Positions 23,282 through 34,281 of a stretch of 64,000 bases of DNA are shown piece after piece. Positions within the stretch are counted from its first letter, which is position 1, and each line of letters starts with the position of its first letter. The position numbers and the translations under genes were made by a program. The notes under the pieces were generated by a model. The model worked only from the letters and a program-made list of their open reading frames with translations. It was not told the DNA's origin and did no database searches. The DNA lies in NCBI GenBank assembly GCA_024653345.1, contig JANLFV010000002.1, positions 68,830 to 132,829 on the forward strand, in the 5' to 3' direction. Source of the stretch: Candidatus Acetothermia bacterium. Lineage in GTDB: Bacteria > Bipolaricaulota > Bipolaricaulia > RBG-16-55-9 > JANLFV01.

Positions 23282-24040
23282 GTGGGTAGAGGGGAGCGTC
23301 TGACTCCCCGCGCTGATCCGCAGGAGTTAGCCCAGTTCCTTAGCTCCATCTTTGCGGGCCTAGGCCAGGCTGAATTGCGGGAGCTGCTGGACTCGACCCT
23401 CATGCTGAGCTATGGGGAAGGCGATCTGATTGTCCAGGAGGGCTCATACTTCTCGGGGATCTATATCGTCTATCGTGGGCTAGTCCAGATCGGAAAATAC
23501 TCTTCCACCGGGAAGCGGCGGGTCCTGCGCTTCTTGGCCCCCCGGGAGATGTTCGGCCTGGAGGCGCTGTTCATGCGCGAGCAGGAGATGAACATCCAGT
23601 ATGCCAGGGCTCTGGTCGACTCCGACGTCTTGTTCATCAAGGAGCGGGGATTCTGCGATTTTCTGAAGAGCCATCCGGCGGCGCTCTTCACGCTATGTCA
23701 GTGGTTCGCGCGGGAGGTGGCGATGCTAGAGTTCAAGCTCACGCGAGATGCCACTGAAGGGAGCTTGCAGAACTTCGCCCTGCTCCTGGCAGCTCTCAAA
23801 GACAAATACGGGTCGAGGACGGCCTCGGGAATACAGATCAAGCTGGAGCTCCCGCGCCAACTGCTCGCGGAGCTCCTCGGGGTCTCCGTCGAGACGATAA
23901 TCCGCCTGATGAAGAACTTGAAGGACAGGGGCATTATCACAGCGGAGAACAGTGAGATAACCATAACTGACGAGGACAAGCTGACCTCTATCGGCCGGAC
24001 GACAGCCTTCTACCTGGAGATACTGAAGGAGACCCTCTGA
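23282..24040 (+). CDS. Crp/Fnr-family transcription regulator (first copy)
   Basis: 252 residues from a GTG behind GAGGAGG. The N-terminal cyclic-nucleotide-binding-like domain (SYGEGDLIVQEGSYFSGIYI, VLRFLAPREMFGLEALF) is followed by a dimerisation helix and a C-terminal winged HTH (LPRQLLAELLGVSVETIIRL with MKNLKDRGIITAE). There is no FNR-type N-terminal Cys cluster and no full cAMP phosphate-binding cassette, so the ligand is unknown. It is convergent with a second family member, with 9 bp between stops, and lies 1 kb upstream of the glutamate dehydrogenase/flavoprotein region, which carries a Crp/Fnr-like operator at 26854-26869. Confidence 0.88.
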   Translation: MGRGERLTPRADPQELAQFLSSIFAGLGQAELRELLDSTLMLSYGEGDLIVQEGSYFSGIYIVYRGLVQIGKYSSTGKRRVLRFLAPREMFGLEALFMREQEMNIQYARALVDSDVLFIKERGFCDFLKSHPAALFTLCQWFAREVAMLEFKLTRDATEGSLQNFALLLAALKDKYGSRTASGIQIKLELPRQLLAELLGVSVETIIRLMKNLKDRGIITAENSEITITDEDKLTSIGRTTAFYLEILKETL

Positions 24041-24049
24041 GCTAGGCTA

Positions 24050-24805
24050 TTACAGGACTTGAGGCACGAGGGGATCGAGCCCGGCCAGCTCGGCTAGCCC
24101 CTCAGGATCGAGGACTACCAGTTTCCGCCCCTCTGCAGCGACCAATCCCTGCTCTTTCAGCTCCCTCAGGGCACGGATGAGCGATTCAGTGGAGACACCG
24201 AGCAGATCAGCGAGCACGCTCCGCTTGAGCTCCAGCTCAACAGACCACGCCCGACCACCGTTGGCGCGGAATTTGCGCGCTAGAGCCAACAGCACGAGCG
24301 CAAGGTTCCTCGTGGGAGTCTCGCTCCCATCCCAGGCCAATCTAATCTCGAGCGCGAGCAGCTCGCGGGCTAGCCAGTTGCAGAGCCTGATGGCTACATC
24401 GGGGCGGGCCTCAAGCAAGTCGAGAAAGGTGTCCCGATCGATGAAGCGCACCCGCATATCTGTGAGGGCGCGGGCGTAGCCAAAATGCGGCCAATCGCCG
24501 TGCAACAGCAGAGTATCGGCTCCCAGTAAGTCCTGGGGGCCGACAATCTTGATGATCCTCTCCCTGGACCCGTCGCCGGAGCGTCGCCCGTAGGCCGCCA
24601 GTCCTTCGGTGATCACATGGATGCCAGCAGTGATGGCTCCCTGCTGAAAGAGCAGGTCGCCCGCCTGATACTGAACGGATATCGATGCATCGTTGAGCCA
24701 GGCCAGCTCATCTTCCCCAAGGCCGCCGAAGATTGATTGAGGGAGGCCCTCAGCCACCCCGGGCTGCTCTAGTGTCTCGAGTGCAACTGGTGTGGTCTCT
24801 AACAT
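24050..24805 (-). CDS. Crp/Fnr-family transcription regulator (second copy)
   Basis: 251 residues. Sensor domain: VQYQAGDLLFQQGAITAGIH, RIIKIVGPQDLLGADTLLL. HTH: LKRSVLADLLGVSTESLIRA with LRELKEQGLVAAEGRKLV. It is distantly paralogous to the gene at 23282-24040 and equal in length. No iron-sulfur Cys set is visible. It is divergent from the glutamate dehydrogenase gene, the classical position for a regulator of that gene. Its effector and targets are not readable from sequence. Confidence 0.88.
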   Translation of the reverse strand: MLETTPVALETLEQPGVAEGLPQSIFGGLGEDELAWLNDASISVQYQAGDLLFQQGAITAGIHVITEGLAAYGRRSGDGSRERIIKIVGPQDLLGADTLLLHGDWPHFGYARALTDMRVRFIDRDTFLDLLEARPDVAIRLCNWLARELLALEIRLAWDGSETPTRNLALVLLALARKFRANGGRAWSVELELKRSVLADLLGVSTESLIRALRELKEQGLVAAEGRKLVVLDPEGLAELAGLDPLVPQVL

Positions 24806-25065
24806 GATGCTGCCCTCACTCTAGCGAAGAATCCGGGCGCCAGCACTGTCTTTTCTCATAGCGCGATACCTCTCTCCCTCATGCCCGGAGGAGGCCGACA
24901 GTCAGCAAATTGCCAGTCATTTGGCGAGGATTGCCACTCAATTGGGCGGGCCACAGCTGGCAGAGACGACAGCGGCGGGCACCACAAAATGCGCTCCCTT
25001 TGCTGCGGTCGATCCTGGAGCCATGTTTCTGCTCGTCCTTAGAATCGCAGCGGAGGTGGTCGCAA

Positions 25066-26385
25066 TTGATCAAGATGAGAGACATTGCTGGAGCTGCCGT
25101 CGCTGAGGCCATACCCAGGCAGCGCGAATTAGGCACCAATCCCTATGAGATGGTCCTGGCCCAGTTAGATGGCGTCGGGAAGGAGCTCGATCTGGACCGC
25201 GGCCTGCTCGAGATCCTCAAGCGGCCGGAGCGCGTGGTCGAGGTCTCCGTCCCGGTGGTGATGGATGACGGCCGGATCGAGGTGTTCACCGGATACAGGG
25301 TGCAGCACAACAGCGCTCGCGGCCCCTACAAGGGGGGAATCAGATATCACCCCGATGTCACCCTCGATGAAGTGAAAGCCCTCGCAGCCTGGATGACCTG
25401 GAAGTGCGCCGTGGTCAATATCCCCTACGGCGGCGGGAAGGGCGGGATCAAGTGCGACCCGACCCAGATGTCTGAGGGGGAGCTCCAGAGGATGACGCGG
25501 CGATATGTCACGATGCTCCTCCCACTCCTCGGGCCGGAGAAGGACATCCCGGCACCGGATGTGAACACCAACGCCACGATCATGGACTGGATCATGGATA
25601 CGGCCAGCATCTTCAGCGGGCATTATCTCCCGGGGATTGTCACGGGGAAGTCGGTCGAGCTGGGAGGAGCCCTGGGGAGGCGCGAAGCGACCGGCCGAGG
25701 CGTGACGATCATCACCAAGGAGGTCCTGAAGCGGCTCGGCATGAGCCTTCAGGAAACGACCGTGGCTATTCAAGGCTACGGTAACGTCGGCTCTGTCAGC
25801 GCGACCTTGCTGGCCCAGGAGGGTTGCCGGATCGTCGGCGTGAGCGATATCTCCGGCGGATTCTACAACCCAAACGGCTTGGATATCCCGGATATCAATC
25901 GGTATGTCCGCACATCGCCGGGGCATCTCCTGCGAGGATACACCGCCCGCGGAGCCGCGCCGATCTCCAACGAAGAGCTATTGACGCTACAGGCGGATGT
26001 GCTGATCCCCGCCGCTATGGAATGCCAGATCACCGAGGAGAACGCCCCTGAAGTTCGGGCCCGAGTCATCGTCGAGGGGGCCAACGGGCCGACGACTCCC
26101 GAGGCTGATCTAATCCTCGAAGAGAGGGGCATCTACGTTGTGCCGGACATCCTCGCCAATGCCGGCGGGGTGGTCGGCTCCTACTTCGAGTGGGTGCAGA
26201 GCCTGCAGGCCTTCCCTTGGACCGAGGAGGAGACGAACGCCAGACTCGCGCGGATCATGAGCCAGAGCTTTGCCGAGGTCTGGGAGTGCGCACGCGAGCG
26301 GTCAGTCACCCTCAGAAAAGCTGCCCTGATGCTGGCTGTCAATCGCGTGGCGGAAGCCATTCGGAGGCGCGGGATCTTCCCGTAA
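25066..26385 (+). CDS. gdhA: glutamate dehydrogenase (first copy)
   Basis: 439 residues from TTG 25066, chosen because GGAGGTG at 25052-25058 is 7 bp upstream; ATG 25075 is too far from it, and a longer frame from 24910 covers non-coding sequence. It interconverts glutamate and 2-oxoglutarate plus ammonia. Motifs: RGPYKGGIRYHPDV, AAWMTWKCAVVNIPYGGGKG (substrate lysines), DIPAPDVNTN (catalytic Asp), VAIQGYGNVGS (dinucleotide fold), ARVIVEGANGPTTPEAD. Hexameric GDH family. It has a separate upstream region from the operon at 27057 but points the same way. Coenzyme preference is not assigned. Confidence 0.92.
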   Translation: MIKMRDIAGAAVAEAIPRQRELGTNPYEMVLAQLDGVGKELDLDRGLLEILKRPERVVEVSVPVVMDDGRIEVFTGYRVQHNSARGPYKGGIRYHPDVTLDEVKALAAWMTWKCAVVNIPYGGGKGGIKCDPTQMSEGELQRMTRRYVTMLLPLLGPEKDIPAPDVNTNATIMDWIMDTASIFSGHYLPGIVTGKSVELGGALGRREATGRGVTIITKEVLKRLGMSLQETTVAIQGYGNVGSVSATLLAQEGCRIVGVSDISGGFYNPNGLDIPDINRYVRTSPGHLLRGYTARGAAPISNEELLTLQADVLIPAAMECQITEENAPEVRARVIVEGANGPTTPEADLILEERGIYVVPDILANAGGVVGSYFEWVQSLQAFPWTEEETNARLARIMSQSFAEVWECARERSVTLRKAALMLAVNRVAEAIRRRGIFP

Positions 26386-26853: not shown

Positions 26854-26869
26854 CATGATGAATGTCATG
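26854..26869 (+). promoter_or_regulatory. Crp/Fnr-family operator candidate
   Basis: CATGA-N6-TCATG, a symmetrical site with the TGA-N6-TCA core and spacing of the Crp/Fnr family. Its centre (26861.5) is about 41.5 bp upstream of the start predicted from TATAAT at 26891-26896, the class II activator position. Two Crp/Fnr regulator genes lie 2-3.5 kb upstream. Confidence 0.55.
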
Positions 26870-26890
26870 TCTCCGAGGGCATTGCCCTGC

Positions 26891-26896
26891 TATAAT
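26891..26896 (+). promoter_or_regulatory. -10 element of the NuoE / NuoF-GltD operon
   Basis: Perfect TATAAT without a recognisable -35 hexamer at 16-18 bp, as expected for an activator-dependent promoter. The predicted leader is about 150 nt. Confidence 0.5.
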
Positions 26897-27056
26897 CCCG
26901 CCGCAAATGGCCTCCTCACAAAGGTCATTTGCTGTGAGGCGCGCCCGGAATGACGGCCTGGTGTGCCGGTCATGCAGGCTGAACACTAGCAAGCTCTGAG
27001 ATGGGCAGCGGCCTGGCCCAGAGAGTCGAGTAGGCGGGAGAGGAGCAGTTGCCAGG

Positions 27057-27527
27057 GTGGAGAAGGTTGATGAGATAATCGCAAGATACAACGGGGATAG
27101 ATCAGCTCTGATCTCTATCCTGCAGGATATCCAGGCCGAATACAACTGGCTGCCTCGCGAGGTCCTCACCGAAGTCGCTAAGAAAATGGGCCTGTCACTA
27201 ACTGAGCTATGCGGCACCGTCACCTTCTACAGATCCTTCCGCCTGAAGCCGCGGGGCAAGCACTTGATCACGGTCTGCATGGGGACAGCCTGCCATGTCC
27301 GCGGGGCGCCCAGGGTGCTGGAAGAGTTGGAGAAGAAGCTCAAGACTAGTGCGGGCGCAACGACGCCGGATAGGCTCTTCACGCTCGAGACAGTCAGGTG
27401 CCTCGGGGCCTGCGCTCTCGGCCCGATCGTCGTGCTGGGCGATGAGTATCATGGCCAGATGACTAAGGCGAAGGTTGATGCGCTCCTGTCAGAGGTGCGC
27501 CAGAGCGAGAGGGGTGCCAGCCAGTGA
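27057..27527 (+). CDS. NuoE-like [2Fe-2S] flavoprotein subunit
   Basis: A 156-residue NuoE/HydC/HoxE-type thioredoxin-fold protein that carries one [2Fe-2S] cluster and feeds or accepts electrons at the NuoF flavin. It has an N-terminal helical bundle (ALISILQDIQAEYNWLPREV, CGTVTFYRSF), then cluster ligands in ITVCMGTACHVRGA and VRCLGACALGP (two plus two Cys). Start GTG 27057 behind GGAGAGGAG. The stop overlaps the GTG of the NuoF-GltD gene (GTGA). The partner is the fusion protein that follows; no H-cluster hydrogenase or complex I membrane gene is nearby. Confidence 0.9.
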   Translation: MEKVDEIIARYNGDRSALISILQDIQAEYNWLPREVLTEVAKKMGLSLTELCGTVTFYRSFRLKPRGKHLITVCMGTACHVRGAPRVLEELEKKLKTSAGATTPDRLFTLETVRCLGACALGPIVVLGDEYHGQMTKAKVDALLSEVRQSERGASQ

Positions 27528-30500
27528 GGAGGATCGCCGGTCGCCGGGACTTAGAGAAGCTAAGAATCCAGCTGCTCAAGCAGACGCCTTCCAGCCGACC
27601 CTGCATCACGATCTCTTCAGGCACCTGCGGGCGGGCCCGCGGCTCGGAGAAGGTGGGGCAAGCCTTCCGGGAAGCGCTCAGAAAGCATGGCCTCGATGGC
27701 AAGGTTACGATAAGGGTCTCGGGCTGCCACGGCTTCTGCCAAGCAGAGCCCCATGTGCTAGTCCATCCCGAGGGAATCTTCTACCAAAGGCTCCGCCCGG
27801 AGGATGCTGAGGAGATCGTCGTGCAGACCCTTCTCCACGGGAGAATCATCGACCGCCTGCTGTATGTTGACCCTGCCACTGGGAAGAAATCTGTTTATGA
27901 GGGGGAAATCCCCTTCTACAAGAGGCAGCAGCGGAACCTCCTGGCAAGCAATGCCCTGCTCGACCCCACGAGCATTGATGACTACATTGCCATCGGCGGC
28001 TATACAGCCCTAGCTAAGGCCCTCACCACCATGAGGCCAGAGGAAGTAATCGAGGAGATCAAGCGCTCCGGCCTGCGCGGGAGGGGCGGGGCCGGCTTCC
28101 CCACGGGGATCAAGTGGGAGCTCTGCCGCCGCTCGCCCGGGGACCAGAAGTATGTCATCTGCAACGCCGATGAGGGCGACCCCGGAGCCTACATGGATAG
28201 GAGCCTCCTCGAGGGCAATCCGCACTCGGTGATCGAGGGGATGATCATCGGCGCTTACGCCATCGGCGCGTCCTACGGATTCATCTATGTCCGCGCGGAA
28301 TACCCGCTGGCGGTGAAGCATGTGGGTATTGCTCTTGAGCAAGCAAGGGAATACGGTCTTCTCGGAGAGGATATCCTGGCCTCGGGGTTTGATTTCGACC
28401 TCAAGGTTGTTCGCGGCGCTGGAGCATTTGTCTGCGGCGAGGAGACGGCCTTGATGGCCTCGATCGAGGGGAGGAAGGGCGAGCCGCGCCAGCGCCCGCC
28501 CTTCCCCGTTCAGAAGGGCCTCTGGGGTAAGCCGACGAATATCAACAATGTCGAGACCTGGGCCAATGTCCCGCTGATCATCAATCGTGGAGCTGAGTGG
28601 TATGCCAGCATCGGGACGGAGAGGAGCAAGGGGACGAAGATCTTCTCCCTCGTGGGGAAGATCAACAACACCGGCCTGGTCGAGGTCCCGATGGGGATCA
28701 CTTTGAAGGAGATCATCTACGACATCGGCGGGGGGATCCCTAAGGGGAAGAAGTTCAAGGCCGTCCAGACCGGCGGGCCATCAGGAGGCTGCATCCCCGC
28801 TGAGCTGCTCGACCTCCCGGTCGATTATGAGAAGTTGGCCGAGGCCGGCTCGATGATGGGCTCCGGCGGGATGGTTGTGATGGATGAGGACACCTGCATG
28901 GTCGATGTGGCCAGATACTTCCTCGACTTCTTAAGGGATGAGTCCTGCGGGAAGTGCCTCTCCTGCCGCGAGGGGACCCAGAGGATGTTCGAGATCCTCA
29001 CTGCCATCACCGAGGGGCGGGGGAAGGAGGGGGACCTCGAGCTTCTCGAGGAGTTGGCCCTCGTGGTCAAGGAGACCTCGATGTGCGGACTCGGCCAGAC
29101 CGCCCCTAATCCGGTCCTCTCGACGCTCCGCCACTTCCGTGACGAGTATGAGGCCCATATCAAATACAAGCGCTGCCCGGCGGCGGTCTGTAAGGAGCTG
29201 ATCTCCTCGCCCTGCCAGCACATCTGCCCGATCGGGACGGAGGTCCCGGTCTATGTCGCCCTGATCGCTCAGGGGAGGTTCGCCGAGGCCCTAGAAGTAA
29301 TTAGGAAGGACAACCCCCTCCCCTCGGTCTGCGGGCGGGTCTGCCACCATCCCTGCGAGGCCAAGTGCCGTGCGGGCGAGGGGGGCGAGCCGATCGCCAT
29401 CCGGGCGCTCAAGCGGTTTGCCACCGACTATGGGCTGCGGGAGGGGCTCGAGCCCCAGCCGAGCCGCGGCCCCGGGAGGGAGGAGAAGGTGGCCGTGATC
29501 GGCTCCGGGCCGGCGGGCCTGAGCTGCGCCGCCGAGCTGGCCAAGCTCGGTTATCCCGTGACCGTGTTCGAGGCCCTTCCCGTGGCGGGCGGGATGCTCG
29601 CGGTCGGGATCCCGGAATATCGGCTGCCTAAGAGGATCTTGCAGGCCGACATTAGGGCGATCGAGAGCCTCGGCGTGGAGATCAAGACGAACACCGCTTT
29701 GGGGAGGGAGATCACGCTCGACGGGCTCTTCGCTCAGGGATATAAGGCCATCTTCATCGCCATCGGGGCCCACAAGAGCCTGAAGCTCGGCCTCCCCGGC
29801 GAGGAGGCCGAAGGGGTCCTCCCGGCGATGGACTTCCTGACCGCCGTTAACCTCGGGAAGAAGGTCCAGCTCGGCCCGCGGGTGGGGATCATCGGCGGGG
29901 GAAATGCCGCCGTCGACGCCGCGCGGGTCGCCCGCCGCCTCCTGAGAGATGGCGAGGTTACCATCATTTATCGCCGGACCAGGGCAGAGATGCCGGCCTA
30001 CCCCGAGGAGGTGGAGGCCGCCCTGGAGGAGGGGATCGCGATAGAGTTCCTCGCCGCGCCGGTGGAGATCCTCAGCTCGAACGGGAAGCTCGAGGGCGTG
30101 AAGCTCGTCCGCATGGAGTTGGGCGAGGTGGACGAGACCGGGCGGCGGAGGCCGATCCCGATCCCCGGCTCGGAGTTCACCCTCGAGCTCGACACCCTGA
30201 TCGCCGCGATCGGCGAGGAGCCGGAGATCCCCTTCCAGGACGGGCAGGTTCGTGTCTCCAAGTGGAAGACGATCGAGGTCGATCCGGAGACCTTTGCGAC
30301 AGGCCGGCCAGGGGTCTTCGCTGGCGGAGATGTGGTGAGCGGGCCGGGGACAGTGATCGAGGCGATCGCGGCCGGGAAGGTCGCGGCCCAATCGATCGAC
30401 AGTTATCTCCGCGGCTTGCCCCTCACGCGGGAGTATCGCTTGACCCGCCCCTCGGTCTACATCCCGCCGGTCGAGCTCTCCGAGGAGGAAGTAATCCAGG

Positions 30501-30685
30501 CCCGACGGCCGGCGATGCCGCTTCTCCGGCCAGAGGAGCGGGCCAGCAACTTTAAGGAGGTCGAGCTCGGCCTCACCGAGGAGCAAGCGATTAAGGAAGC
30601 ACGAAGGTGCCTCCGCTGCGACCTCGAGACGAAGGAAGGGAAGGCCGCCATCTCCGGGAGGGCCGTCGAGGCCGGGAGGGCTTAA
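27524..30685 (+). CDS. NuoF-GltD fusion flavoprotein (predicted NADH/NADPH/ferredoxin electron-bifurcating subunit)
   Basis: 1053 residues. ~25-115: thioredoxin-like [2Fe-2S] domain (Cys27, 35, 68, 72) as at the N-terminus of HydB. ~140-530: NuoF core with GLRGRGGAGFPTGIKWE (FMN), CNADEGDPGAYMDR (NADH) and a [4Fe-4S] site (Cys475, 478, 481, 521). ~550-620: ferredoxin-like GltD linker (Cys564, 568, 603, 607, 611, 615). ~655-1010: GltD/NfnB-type FAD domain (AVIGSGPAGLSCAAELA) and NAD(P)H domain (VGIIGGGNAAVDAARVA), ending near GGDVVSGPGTVIEAIAAG. In Sporomusa-type Nfn (StnABC), NuoF-, NuoE- and GltD-like subunits bifurcate electrons between NADPH, NAD and ferredoxin; here two are fused. Start GTG overlaps nuoE. 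The function is an inference from domains. Confidence 0.9.
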   Translation: MRRIAGRRDLEKLRIQLLKQTPSSRPCITISSGTCGRARGSEKVGQAFREALRKHGLDGKVTIRVSGCHGFCQAEPHVLVHPEGIFYQRLRPEDAEEIVVQTLLHGRIIDRLLYVDPATGKKSVYEGEIPFYKRQQRNLLASNALLDPTSIDDYIAIGGYTALAKALTTMRPEEVIEEIKRSGLRGRGGAGFPTGIKWELCRRSPGDQKYVICNADEGDPGAYMDRSLLEGNPHSVIEGMIIGAYAIGASYGFIYVRAEYPLAVKHVGIALEQAREYGLLGEDILASGFDFDLKVVRGAGAFVCGEETALMASIEGRKGEPRQRPPFPVQKGLWGKPTNINNVETWANVPLIINRGAEWYASIGTERSKGTKIFSLVGKINNTGLVEVPMGITLKEIIYDIGGGIPKGKKFKAVQTGGPSGGCIPAELLDLPVDYEKLAEAGSMMGSGGMVVMDEDTCMVDVARYFLDFLRDESCGKCLSCREGTQRMFEILTAITEGRGKEGDLELLEELALVVKETSMCGLGQTAPNPVLSTLRHFRDEYEAHIKYKRCPAAVCKELISSPCQHICPIGTEVPVYVALIAQGRFAEALEVIRKDNPLPSVCGRVCHHPCEAKCRAGEGGEPIAIRALKRFATDYGLREGLEPQPSRGPGREEKVAVIGSGPAGLSCAAELAKLGYPVTVFEALPVAGGMLAVGIPEYRLPKRILQADIRAIESLGVEIKTNTALGREITLDGLFAQGYKAIFIAIGAHKSLKLGLPGEEAEGVLPAMDFLTAVNLGKKVQLGPRVGIIGGGNAAVDAARVARRLLRDGEVTIIYRRTRAEMPAYPEEVEAALEEGIAIEFLAAPVEILSSNGKLEGVKLVRMELGEVDETGRRRPIPIPGSEFTLELDTLIAAIGEEPEIPFQDGQVRVSKWKTIEVDPETFATGRPGVFAGGDVVSGPGTVIEAIAAGKVAAQSIDSYLRGLPLTREYRLTRPSVYIPPVELSEEEVIQARRPAMPLLRPEERASNFKEVELGLTEEQAIKEARRCLRCDLETKEGKAAISGRAVEAGRA

Positions 30686-31413
30686 TGAATGGCATGATAA
30701 CGCTGCGGATCAACGGATTGGATGTCCAGGTCGAGGAAGGGACGACCCTGCTCGAGGCCGCCCGATTCCTGGGGTTCAAGATCCCGACCCTCTGCTACCA
30801 CGAGGGCTTGAGCCCTTATGGGGCCTGCCGCCTCTGCATCGTCGAGATCGGCGAGGGGAAGCGGGCCAGGCTCGTCTCCTCCTGCACTTATCCGGCGGAG
30901 GAAGGGCTAGTGGTCCGGACCCATTCCGAGAGGGTGATCCGGGCGCGGAAGATGCTGGTGGAACTGATGCTCTCGATCGCGCCGAACTCCAAGACCATCC
31001 AGGATCTGGCCTCCGAGCTGGGAGTGCAACAGGTGCGGTTTGAGGTGAGGAACGAGGAATGCATCCTCTGCGGCCTCTGTGTCCGGATGTGCGCCGAGCA
31101 GATGGACGCTCGGGCGATCGGGTTCGTCGGGCGGGGCCAGGAGCGGCGGATCACTACCCCGTTCGACATGAAGTCCGAAGCCTGCCGGACCTGTGGTGGC
31201 TGCATCTACATCTGCCCGGTCTGCCAGCTCCGCTGCCAGGGACCGGAGGCACCGAGCGCGGTCTGCGGCTCCTGCCTCCAGCTGGAGCCCACCTGTCTCG
31301 AGGCCTACGATGACCTAATGTGCTACATGGGCCCAGCCGGGGTCTGCGGGACCTGCATCAGGCCTGTTCCGGACGAGCTGCGAGAGCGCGAACGGACCAA
31401 GGTCAAGGTATAG
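30685..31413 (+). CDS. cysteine-rich [2Fe-2S]/[4Fe-4S] electron-transfer protein (HoxU/NuoG-N-like)
   Basis: 242 residues from ATG 30685 (TAATG overlap, GGAGGG upstream). Residues 1-75: plant-type [2Fe-2S] domain with Cys37, 48, 51, 67. Residues 120-180: two [4Fe-4S] ferredoxin motifs (Cys126, 129, 132, 136 and 167, 170, 173, 177). The last 65 residues carry eight further Cys (180, 184, 194, 197, 204, 213, 221, 224), which are not part of the usual HoxU/NuoG N-terminal pattern and could bind one or two more clusters. It probably carries electrons between the NuoF-GltD protein and the FMN-binding glutamate synthase protein or ferredoxin. Confidence 0.85.
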   Translation: MNGMITLRINGLDVQVEEGTTLLEAARFLGFKIPTLCYHEGLSPYGACRLCIVEIGEGKRARLVSSCTYPAEEGLVVRTHSERVIRARKMLVELMLSIAPNSKTIQDLASELGVQQVRFEVRNEECILCGLCVRMCAEQMDARAIGFVGRGQERRITTPFDMKSEACRTCGGCIYICPVCQLRCQGPEAPSAVCGSCLQLEPTCLEAYDDLMCYMGPAGVCGTCIRPVPDELRERERTKVKV

Positions 31414-31444: not shown

Positions 31445-33022
31445 ATGTCGATCACTAGGCTGAACTCGAGCGCGGCCACGCTGAGCAAGAATCGGACTGA
31501 CGGCTCGGTGACGCCGATCAGCGGGATGTGCGTCACTTGCGTTGATGGCTGCATCGGGATGTGCGAGATCGGGAAGTCGGCCTATCGCGGGAGCGAGGCG
31601 ATCTACCCCCAGCCGTTCGGGATCATCACCACTGCCTCGGAGAAGGCCTATCCGCTGGACCTCTCTCACTTCAACATCATGGGGACGACCGTTGGGGCGC
31701 ATGGGATCGAGGCGGACAGCGATGTGGCTATCTTCCCCAGTGTGCGATTGGAGAGGGAGATCGGGCGGGAGAAGAAGGTCAAATTGAAGCTCCCTTTGGC
31801 CGTCCTAGCCATGGGCTCGACGAATGTGGCCAGGAATAACTGGGAAGGGCTAGCCATCGGCGCGGCCTTGGCAGGGATCCCGGTCACCATCGGGGAGAAC
31901 GTCGCCGGGATGGACCCGGAATCGAGGATTGTCAAGGGGAAGCTGGTCGATTCCCCAGAGCTGGCCCGCCGCGTCCGGCTATACAGGGACTGGCAGCGGG
32001 ACGGCTACGGAGAGATCATCCTTCAGGCCAATGTGGAGGACACCCGCCTGGGGGCGCAGGAGTATGCTCTCAGCAAGCTGGGGGTGAGCGCAGTTGAGCT
32101 GAAGTGGGGCCAGGGGGCGAAGGACATCGGCGGCGAGGTGAAGATCAGGGACTTAAGGACGGCCCAGCTCCTTAAGAAGCGGGGCTACATCGTCCTTCCT
32201 GACCCCGAGGACCCCCGTGTGATCGCGGCCTTCGAGGCGGGGAGCTTCAAGGAGTTCGAGCGCCACTCGCGGGTGGGGATGGTCACCGAGGAGGGCTTCC
32301 TGGAAAGGGTGAAAGAGCTCCGCCAGGCCGGGGCGAAGTTCATCTCCTTGAAGACCGGGGCTTATCGCCCTGCAGACCTGGCTCGGGCGGTCAAGTTCGC
32401 CTCCGAAGGGAAGCTTGACCTGCTAGTGGCGGATGCGGCCGGCGGGGGGACCGGGATGAGCCCCTGGCGGATGATGAACGAGTGGGGCGTCCCGGGCGTG
32501 GAGCTCTGGTCCCTCCTCTATCGCTATGCGGACAAGCTTGCCAAGCGCGGGGAGTATGTGCCGGATATCGCCATCGCTGGCGGCTTCATCTTGGAGGATC
32601 AGATCTTCAAGGGGCTGGCCCTCGGGGCTCCCTATTTCAAACTGATTGGGATGGCTCGTGGCCCGATGGCGGCGGCAATGGTCGGGAAGACGATCGGGCG
32701 GCGGATCGACCAGGGCGAAGTCCCTGTCTATGTCGCCCGCTTCGGCAGCACCAAGGAGGAGATCTTCGTCACTGCAGCGGAACTGAAGCACGAACTCGGA
32801 GCTGACTTTGAGAGGGTTCCGACCGGGGCTCTGGGGCTCTACACCTATCTCCAGCGGCTCGCGCAGGGGCTGCGACAGTTGATGTGCGGTGCGCGGAAGT
32901 TCGCTTTGGAGTATATTACTCGTGACGACATCGCTGCCCTCACGAGAGAGGCGGCGGAGGTCAGCGGTGTTCCCTACATCACAGAGGTAGATGCGGCAGA
33001 GGTGGAGCGGATACTCGCATGA
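31445..33022 (+). CDS. FMN-binding glutamate synthase domain protein
   Basis: 525 residues, archaeal/stand-alone GltB type: the FMN TIM-barrel synthase domain without a glutaminase domain. Motifs: ISLKTGAYRPADLARAVKFA, LLVADAAGGGTGMSPWRMM, IAIAGGFILEDQIFKGLALG, YFKLIGMARGPMAAAMVGK. The N-terminus adds CVTCVDGCIGMCEIG (Cys29, 32, 36, 40), a probable [4Fe-4S] site. Such domains reduce 2-iminoglutarate to glutamate in glutamate synthases; lacking glutaminase, this one would need ammonia from elsewhere or do another reaction. It lies between an Fe-S protein and a glutamate dehydrogenase gene that starts within its stop codon. Confidence 0.85.
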   Translation: MSITRLNSSAATLSKNRTDGSVTPISGMCVTCVDGCIGMCEIGKSAYRGSEAIYPQPFGIITTASEKAYPLDLSHFNIMGTTVGAHGIEADSDVAIFPSVRLEREIGREKKVKLKLPLAVLAMGSTNVARNNWEGLAIGAALAGIPVTIGENVAGMDPESRIVKGKLVDSPELARRVRLYRDWQRDGYGEIILQANVEDTRLGAQEYALSKLGVSAVELKWGQGAKDIGGEVKIRDLRTAQLLKKRGYIVLPDPEDPRVIAAFEAGSFKEFERHSRVGMVTEEGFLERVKELRQAGAKFISLKTGAYRPADLARAVKFASEGKLDLLVADAAGGGTGMSPWRMMNEWGVPGVELWSLLYRYADKLAKRGEYVPDIAIAGGFILEDQIFKGLALGAPYFKLIGMARGPMAAAMVGKTIGRRIDQGEVPVYVARFGSTKEEIFVTAAELKHELGADFERVPTGALGLYTYLQRLAQGLRQLMCGARKFALEYITRDDIAALTREAAEVSGVPYITEVDAAEVERILA

Positions 33023-34281
33023 AGAGGCAAGAGGCGGCGAAGAAGTTCTCCCTCGCCGAGATGGCGAGGGAGCAGATCGCGCGAGCAGCCCGGGTGATGG
33101 AGCTGCCAGCTGACCTATTGACAATCCTCAACTGCCCCAAGCGGGTGTTGACCGTCTCCCTGCCCATCGAGCGAGACGATGGGAGCATCAGCTGCTTCAC
33201 CGGCTTCCGCTGCCAATACAACAATATGCGCGGGCCGACCAAGGGCGGGGTCCGGATCCATCCCGATGTCACTGAGGACGAGGTGATCGCGCTGGCAGCC
33301 TGGATGACCTGGAAGTGCGCCCTGGTCGATTTGCCTTACGGAGGCGCGAAGGGCGGGATCATCTGCGACCCTACGAAGCTCTCGGAGAAGGAGCTCGAGC
33401 GGCTGATCCGACGCTATACTACGGAGATCATGCCCCTCCTCGGCCCGCACCAGGACATCCCGGCCCCCGATGTCTTCACCACCTCCAAAGAGATGGCCTG
33501 GATGATGGATACCTTCAGCATGTTCAAGGGGTATACCGAGCCGAGCGTCGTCACTGGGAAGCCCGAGGTCCTCGGTGGCTCGCCGATCCGGAAAGAGGCC
33601 ACCGGGCGGGGTGTGGCCATTGTGACGCGGCAGCTTTTCGAGAAGCTCGGCTGGAGCCTGAAGGGAGCGAGAGCCGCCATCCAAGGCTTCGGGAATGTCG
33701 GCAGCTTTACGGCCCTCTTCCTCTCAGAGATGGGGGTGAAGATCGTCGCCGTCTCCGATGTCTATGGAGGTTATGCCGATGACCGGGGCTTCAAGATCCC
33801 AGAGCTCATGGCTTACGCGGAGAAACACGGCTCGCTGCGGGGCTGGCCGGGAGAGAGGATCGAACGGGACGAGATCCTCTACCAAGATGTCGATCTCCTC
33901 GTCCCAGCAGCTCTGGAGAATCAGTTACACGCGGGTAATGCGGCCAGAATAAGAGCCAGGGCCATCGTCGAGGGCGCTAACGGCCCGACAACGCCCGAAG
34001 CGGACGAGGTCCTGGAGAAGCGGGGCATCCATGTTGTCCCCGACATCTTAGCCAACTCCGGAGGGGTCATCGTCAGCCACCTCGAGTGGGTTCAAGCTCT
34101 GAGCGGGCTTCTTTGGGAGAGAGAGGAAACGATCAGCCGGCTCGAGCGCCGGCTGGTCCGGAGCTTCGATGCGGTCTGGAAGAAGGCGCAAGAGAAGAGG
34201 GTCTCCTTGCGAACGGCAGCCTACATCGTGGCCTTGGAAAGGGTCGTGGAGACCTATCGCTATCGGGGCCTCTTCCCCTGA
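33019..34281 (+). CDS. glutamate dehydrogenase (second copy)
   Basis: 420 residues, ATGA overlap with the glutamate synthase gene. Family motifs: RGPTKGGVRIHPDV, AAWMTWKCALVDLPYGGAKG, DIPAPDVFTTSKEMAWMMD, AAIQGFGNVGSFTALFLSE, AIVEGANGPTTPEADE. The residue after the catalytic PAPDV is Phe-Thr-Thr where the first copy and most homologues have (N/Y)-T-N; whether this alters activity is unknown. The two copies are diverged paralogues rather than a recent duplication. Being last in the operon, it may form part of a complex with the flavoproteins or run the reverse reaction. Confidence 0.92.
   Translation: MKRQEAAKKFSLAEMAREQIARAARVMELPADLLTILNCPKRVLTVSLPIERDDGSISCFTGFRCQYNNMRGPTKGGVRIHPDVTEDEVIALAAWMTWKCALVDLPYGGAKGGIICDPTKLSEKELERLIRRYTTEIMPLLGPHQDIPAPDVFTTSKEMAWMMDTFSMFKGYTEPSVVTGKPEVLGGSPIRKEATGRGVAIVTRQLFEKLGWSLKGARAAIQGFGNVGSFTALFLSEMGVKIVAVSDVYGGYADDRGFKIPELMAYAEKHGSLRGWPGERIERDEILYQDVDLLVPAALENQLHAGNAARIRARAIVEGANGPTTPEADEVLEKRGIHVVPDILANSGGVIVSHLEWVQALSGLLWEREETISRLERRLVRSFDAVWKKAQEKRVSLRTAAYIVALERVVETYRYRGLFP

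Follow-up and report, generated by a model that had tools for sequence, protein, structure and literature searches.

The palindrome CATGATGAATGTCATG, which precedes a flavoprotein operon in the 64,000-nucleotide stretch of DNA analysed here (hereafter the window), is probably a class II activator site belonging to an order-wide redox regulon, and its reader is most likely a cysteine-bearing FNR-like paralogue. The Crp/Fnr-type operator occupies positions 26854-26869 of the window (no strand assigned; core ATGAT-GAAT-GTCAT) and is centred at 26861.5. A -10 hexamer, TATAAT, follows on the forward strand at 26891-26896, i.e. 21 bp past the operator, and this spacing is conserved in the order. Placing the hexamer at -12 to -7 puts the predicted transcription start at 26903, and the centre of the palindrome then falls at -41.5. 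The original prediction, made from the letters of the window alone, had described a symmetric CATGA-N6-TCATG site of Crp/Fnr type about 41.5 bp upstream of the start expected from a perfect TATAAT, and this holds exactly. Its statement that no -35 hexamer accompanies the site is likewise borne out: a sigma-70 scan for a -35 element at the window promoter returned none, and TGTCTC stands in its place, 17 bp from the -10 hexamer. Similarly missing from the window promoter is a G at position -33 that is common among the order's sites. Relative to the predicted start, the promoter thus shows both marks of a class II arrangement, a two-fold symmetric site near -41.5 and a poor or absent -35 element beneath the activator site. 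The usual activating position of E. coli FNR is -41.5, and its site is TTGATnnnnATCAA (PMC3688515).

The operon begins downstream of the TATAAT hexamer with a GTG start codon at 27057, which opens the gene for a nuoE/HoxE-like thioredoxin-like [2Fe-2S] subunit (27057-27527). This gene is followed, all on the forward strand, by those for a HydB/NfnB/NuoF-like flavoprotein fused to a GltD-like NADPH-dependent oxidoreductase domain (27524-30685), a NuoG/HoxU/HydA-like N-terminal iron-sulfur subunit (30682-31413, start inferred), a glutamate synthase FMN-domain protein (GltB2-like, 31445-33022) and the glutamate dehydrogenase Gdh2 (33019-34281). The likeness to bifurcating HydABC/NfnABC/Stn-type complexes is evident from the nuoE, NuoF/HydB-like and GltD-like modules, which match the solved NiFe-HydB, HydB and NfnB/NfnA chains. 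However, the NuoF/HydB-like and GltD-like modules are fused here, in a single 1053-aa polypeptide, and the genes for the glutamate synthase FMN-domain protein and glutamate dehydrogenase come next. An Rfam scan near the operon returned nothing above threshold. The only close orthologous operon (69%, in G015) has a different gene order and stands behind oxidoreductase genes, and its contig ends before the promoter; 71 further loci, at most 59% identical, were left out of the promoter alignment.

Counts of the palindrome by itself were dropped as evidence, as they lie at chance level in both window and genome. Allowing up to two mismatches, the 64-kb window contains 16 occurrences (17.75 expected from shuffling), and the 1.71 Mb genome contains two exact copies, where simple arithmetic for ten fixed bases gives an expectation of about 1.6. 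These two copies agree at 15 of 16 bases and have a GAAT centre in common, which is not general among the order's sites. Combined with the spacing and the -10 hexamer, the pattern ATGAYnnnnRTCAT (a search pattern with fixed outer A and T) followed after 21-23 bp by TANNNT occurs 74 times in the order, spread over 19 genomes, as opposed to once for the reversed pattern. Across the remaining 81 genomes of the class the same combination yields 31 matches versus 10 for the reversed pattern, and several of these 31 look like copies of a single coding segment within the same genus. When a strict -10 hexamer (TANAAT) is required and the spacing is left free between 8 and 38, 21 of the 33 matches fall at 21-23 bp, a peak confined to 3 of 31 bins (p ~6e-14). 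Most of the 74 sites are intergenic (54, or 73%), whereas positions drawn at random from these loci are intergenic in 10% of cases. Alignment of the order's sites brings the -10 hexamers into register and reveals a TnGACA-like -35 element (G frequency 74%) at 17-bp spacing, which begins on the last base of the site. Within the window genome, a looser pattern gave 12 matches versus one for the control. A search of 197 genomes with the 16-mer CATGATGAATRTCATG, allowing one mismatch, found matches in 40 genomes; many of the loci inspected lie inside genes, and several of those from the same order are intergenic and near redox genes. For these genomes, which are incomplete, have simple ORFs as gene calls and, where related, are not independent, the occurrence of the site with fixed spacing and a -10 hexamer is far beyond chance, and the site, its spacing, its enrichment, the gene content behind it and its phylogenetic spread are established by computation.

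The original prediction for the window of an operator of the Crp/Fnr family in the position of a class II activator is strengthened by the recurrence of the same arrangement across the order before related redox genes. In the window genome the second exact copy precedes an operon that encodes a CCG/Hdr subunit, an HdrA-GltD-like protein and [NiFe]-hydrogenase subunits. Other sites of this genome precede hypA-hypF and the genes for a [NiFe]-hydrogenase small subunit, a 2-oxoacid:ferredoxin oxidoreductase subunit and fumarase, and one lies in the promoter of another Crp/Fnr gene; several others of the 12 looser matches look coding and are probably due to chance. Targets in the relatives, as named by Pfam, include GltD-like proteins, POR alpha, NuoC, Rieske, a NapC/NirT-type cytochrome and ferritin, a glutamyl-tRNA reductase fused to porphobilinogen deaminase (HemA-HemC), riboflavin synthase, Rrf2 and TetR regulators, a CooC-like ATPase (CbiA domain) and a CBS-domain protein. 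Judged by this gene content, the targets would constitute a redox or anaerobiosis regulon. Just past the right end of the window (G000:C22:133201-134048, locus L306), a Crp/Fnr gene is immediately followed by a class II site and then by hypA-hypF.

In the mechanism that we propose, a dimeric activator of the Crp/Fnr family would bind the palindrome at -41.5, overlapping the region in which the -35 element is absent, and would recruit sigma-70 RNA polymerase to the TATAAT hexamer at 26891-26896 (class II activation), so that nuoE, nuoF-gltD, the nuoG-like gene, gltB2 and gdh2 would be switched on. The window promoter would lean more on its activator because the TnGACA-like -35 element is missing there. 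Its operon would belong to a regulon that spans the order and serves respiration and the metabolism of hydrogen, ferredoxin and NAD(P)H. That the site activates and does not repress, where transcription starts, which protein is the reader and that redox or oxygen is the signal are what we infer from sequence.

The window genome encodes seven full Crp/Fnr proteins. The recognition helices of six of them have Glu or Lys and Arg at the positions of CRP 181 and 185 and are without Arg at 180. HcpR1, which has lost Arg180 but retains Glu181, is associated with TTGACnnnnGTCAA sites (PMC1274295), and this rule matches the helices and half-sites found here; by the same rule all paralogues but ARENTTSA, and perhaps also SSKT, could read TGAY. 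As a means of naming the reader the helix sequence was rejected, because most of the seven paralogues have related helices and are too similar. A perfect 10/10 site is located in the own promoter of four cysteine-bearing Crp/Fnr genes, and these four make up the evidence for autoregulation: G000:C8 (L150), G013:C114 (L381), G002:C18 (L226) and G005:C18 (L172, broken into two ORFs). The proteins of L150, its G001 relative and L381 have a Cx2Cx4C motif near the N terminus and another cysteine about 44 residues on; in the G000:C8 protein (fourth Cys 44 residues later) this is not FNR spacing. A common clade, which includes the C22:133275 protein, has fewer cysteines and a single member per genome across most of the order. 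The presence of the STETAIRTL clade compared with that of the sites is at most suggestive, with no such gene found in G006, a genome without the site. Tandem pairs of Crp/Fnr genes are conserved across several genomes of the order (L309, L310, L313, L314, L317, L318, L322 and L339), and one protein of each pair carries C-x4-C-x2-C and two further cysteines. Paralogues that carry cysteines and have the site in the promoter of their own gene are probably better candidates than the two regulators encoded near the operon, CrpA and CrpB. In the proposed mechanism, the reader would most likely be a cysteine-bearing FNR-like paralogue with an ETxIR helix, either the four-cysteine protein of G000:C8 or the protein encoded at G000:C22:133275-134048, just past the right end of the window, whose gene precedes a site and hypA-hypF.

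The class II promoters of E. coli FNR (TTGATnnnnATCAA) share with those described here the 14-bp frame, the TGA/TCA core, the class II position and an anaerobic or redox gene content, and the Glu and Arg of the helix are kept. They differ in the outer base, which is A here and not T (ATGAY), in the residue before Arg, which is Ile and not Ser in most paralogues here, and in the spacing of the cysteines and the place of the fourth one. Indeed, neither the window sequence ATGATnnnnGTCAT nor the order consensus ATGAYnnnnRTCAT is an FNR box, although the outer A/T of that consensus are imposed because the sites were picked by pattern. Sites of HcpR1 type (TTGACnnnnGTCAA, predicted; PMC1274295) are similar in their TGAC half-site, and the regulators are similar in that Glu181 is kept and Arg180 replaced (by Ser/Pro in HcpR1, by Thr/Pro/Val here). 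By contrast, HcpR1 is without cysteine clusters and controls hcp/frdX, whereas the regulon here comprises hydrogen, ferredoxin, NAD(P)H and respiration genes. The class II promoters of E. coli CRP (TGTGAnnnnnnTCACA) are alike in the domain plan of the regulator and the -41.5 position, but no TGTGA half-site is present here, and the candidate readers lack the Arg180 equivalent that goes with a third-position G.

According to the original prediction, two Crp/Fnr genes lie just upstream of the operon and one of their products would activate it. The genes are real, but they are located about 2-3.6 kb away with a glutamate dehydrogenase gene, Gdh1 (25075-26385, forward strand, start inferred), between them and the operon. 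CrpA (23282-24040, forward; helix VSVETIIRLM) and CrpB (24050-24805, reverse; helix VSTESLIRAL) both contain the Pfam domains cNMP_binding and HTH_Crp_2 and are without an N-terminal cysteine cluster. We regard CrpA (at 23282) and CrpB (at 24805) as unlikely activators of the operon through the CATGA site. Both keep the equivalents of Glu181 and Arg185, which fit the TGA core, and a local regulatory role is made plausible by a locus, conserved in about 33 genomes from other families of the class, in which CrpA is joined by Gdh1 and a degenerate CrpB-like gene and sometimes also by nuoE and nuoF-gltD. Regulator and site, however, do not occur together: full-length orthologues of CrpA (44-60% identity) are found in G001 and in some 32-33 genomes of other families of the class, which are without CATGA-type class II sites, while the 17 order genomes of other families, which hold most of the sites, have no CrpA orthologue but only paralogues of at most 42% identity. 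Furthermore, no TGAYnnnnRTCA site is present in the window promoters of CrpA, CrpB or Gdh1, the families that possess CrpA show a different conserved palindrome at its locus, and other paralogues of the window genome are a better fit, all of which argues against activation by a local regulator.

The conserved palindrome at the CrpA and Gdh loci of the other families is CTGTCAnnTGACAG. It came to light through the near-absence of the order's ATGAY-type motif from Gdh and NuoE promoters of those families; de novo motif discovery at their Crp-Gdh loci returned it with a log-likelihood of 141 (21 for shuffled sequences), and it exceeds 8 bits in 40 of 54 Gdh upstream regions. At L410-L442 it precedes glutamate dehydrogenase, nuoE and CrpB-like genes (e.g. 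at 3741 in L426, 4779 in L434 and 3662 in L436), and we found no established name for this class-wide palindrome. Since CrpA is accompanied by Crp-like and Gdh genes across other families, the locus is an old unit. In most relatives the recognition helix of the second Crp-like protein beside CrpA (L412-L442) is degenerate, and the window copy at 24050-24805 keeps the E..IR helix. The window contains no strong match to CTGTCAnnTGACAG; a weak, degenerate match, CAGTCATTTGGCGA, is located on the forward strand in the CrpB-Gdh1 intergenic region (24914-24927).

Exactly at the predicted +1 begins an inverted repeat with 11-bp arms, GCAAATGGCCT-N8-AGGTCATTTGC (26903-26932, forward strand), which may represent a 5' mRNA hairpin or a second operator. 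Its arms resemble GTCATTTGS, the core of the class-wide Gdh operator. This element occurs exactly twice in the 64 kb, in the CrpB-Gdh1 gap and in an arm of the repeat, a recurrence that is statistically weak because 0.5 occurrences are expected. It is a reasonable guess that CrpA and CrpB, if they act at the operon, would do so on GTCATTTGS and not on CATGA. Strong inverted repeats at the predicted +1 are also seen in L246, L256, L264 and L265; the one in L246 lies before a TetR gene, which suggests the operator of a local repressor. A 5' hairpin at +1 as a general feature of the order's class II promoters was rejected, since only a few members show one. A tentative possibility is that redox state and glutamate metabolism meet at the window promoter, where the order's own FNR-like regulon (hydrogen, ferredoxin and respiratory genes; box ATGAYnnnnRTCAT), with four-cysteine readers unlike FNR (three N-terminal cysteines and one in the sensor barrel), would be joined by a CTGTCAnnTGACAG-related palindrome at +1.

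Alternatively, binding of a Crp/Fnr protein across the -35 region could block the promoter, and in many members of the order the TnGACA-like -35 element overlaps the site, so that binding could exclude polymerase there. Such a repressor site is very unlikely in our view, as the window promoter has no -35 element and would need help, and as class II sites classically lie at -41.5 (PMC3688515). That the palindrome is a functionless product of chance is highly improbable, for although by itself it is not enriched in window or genome, its exact class II spacing, its enrichment across the order, its preference for intergenic positions and the second, nearly identical copy ahead of the hydrogenase operon all speak against this.

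The preferred reading, a class II activator site within an order-wide redox regulon, also holds a caution: the nearest regulator gene need not read a site, and here cross-family comparison points elsewhere. It turns a single palindrome into a testable predicted regulon in an uncultured lineage, with a consensus, about 74 promoters and candidates for the regulator, and its genes encompass those for electron-bifurcating flavoproteins, hydrogenases and their maturation, 2-oxoacid:ferredoxin oxidoreductases, NADH dehydrogenase, Rieske, cytochrome c and heme synthesis.
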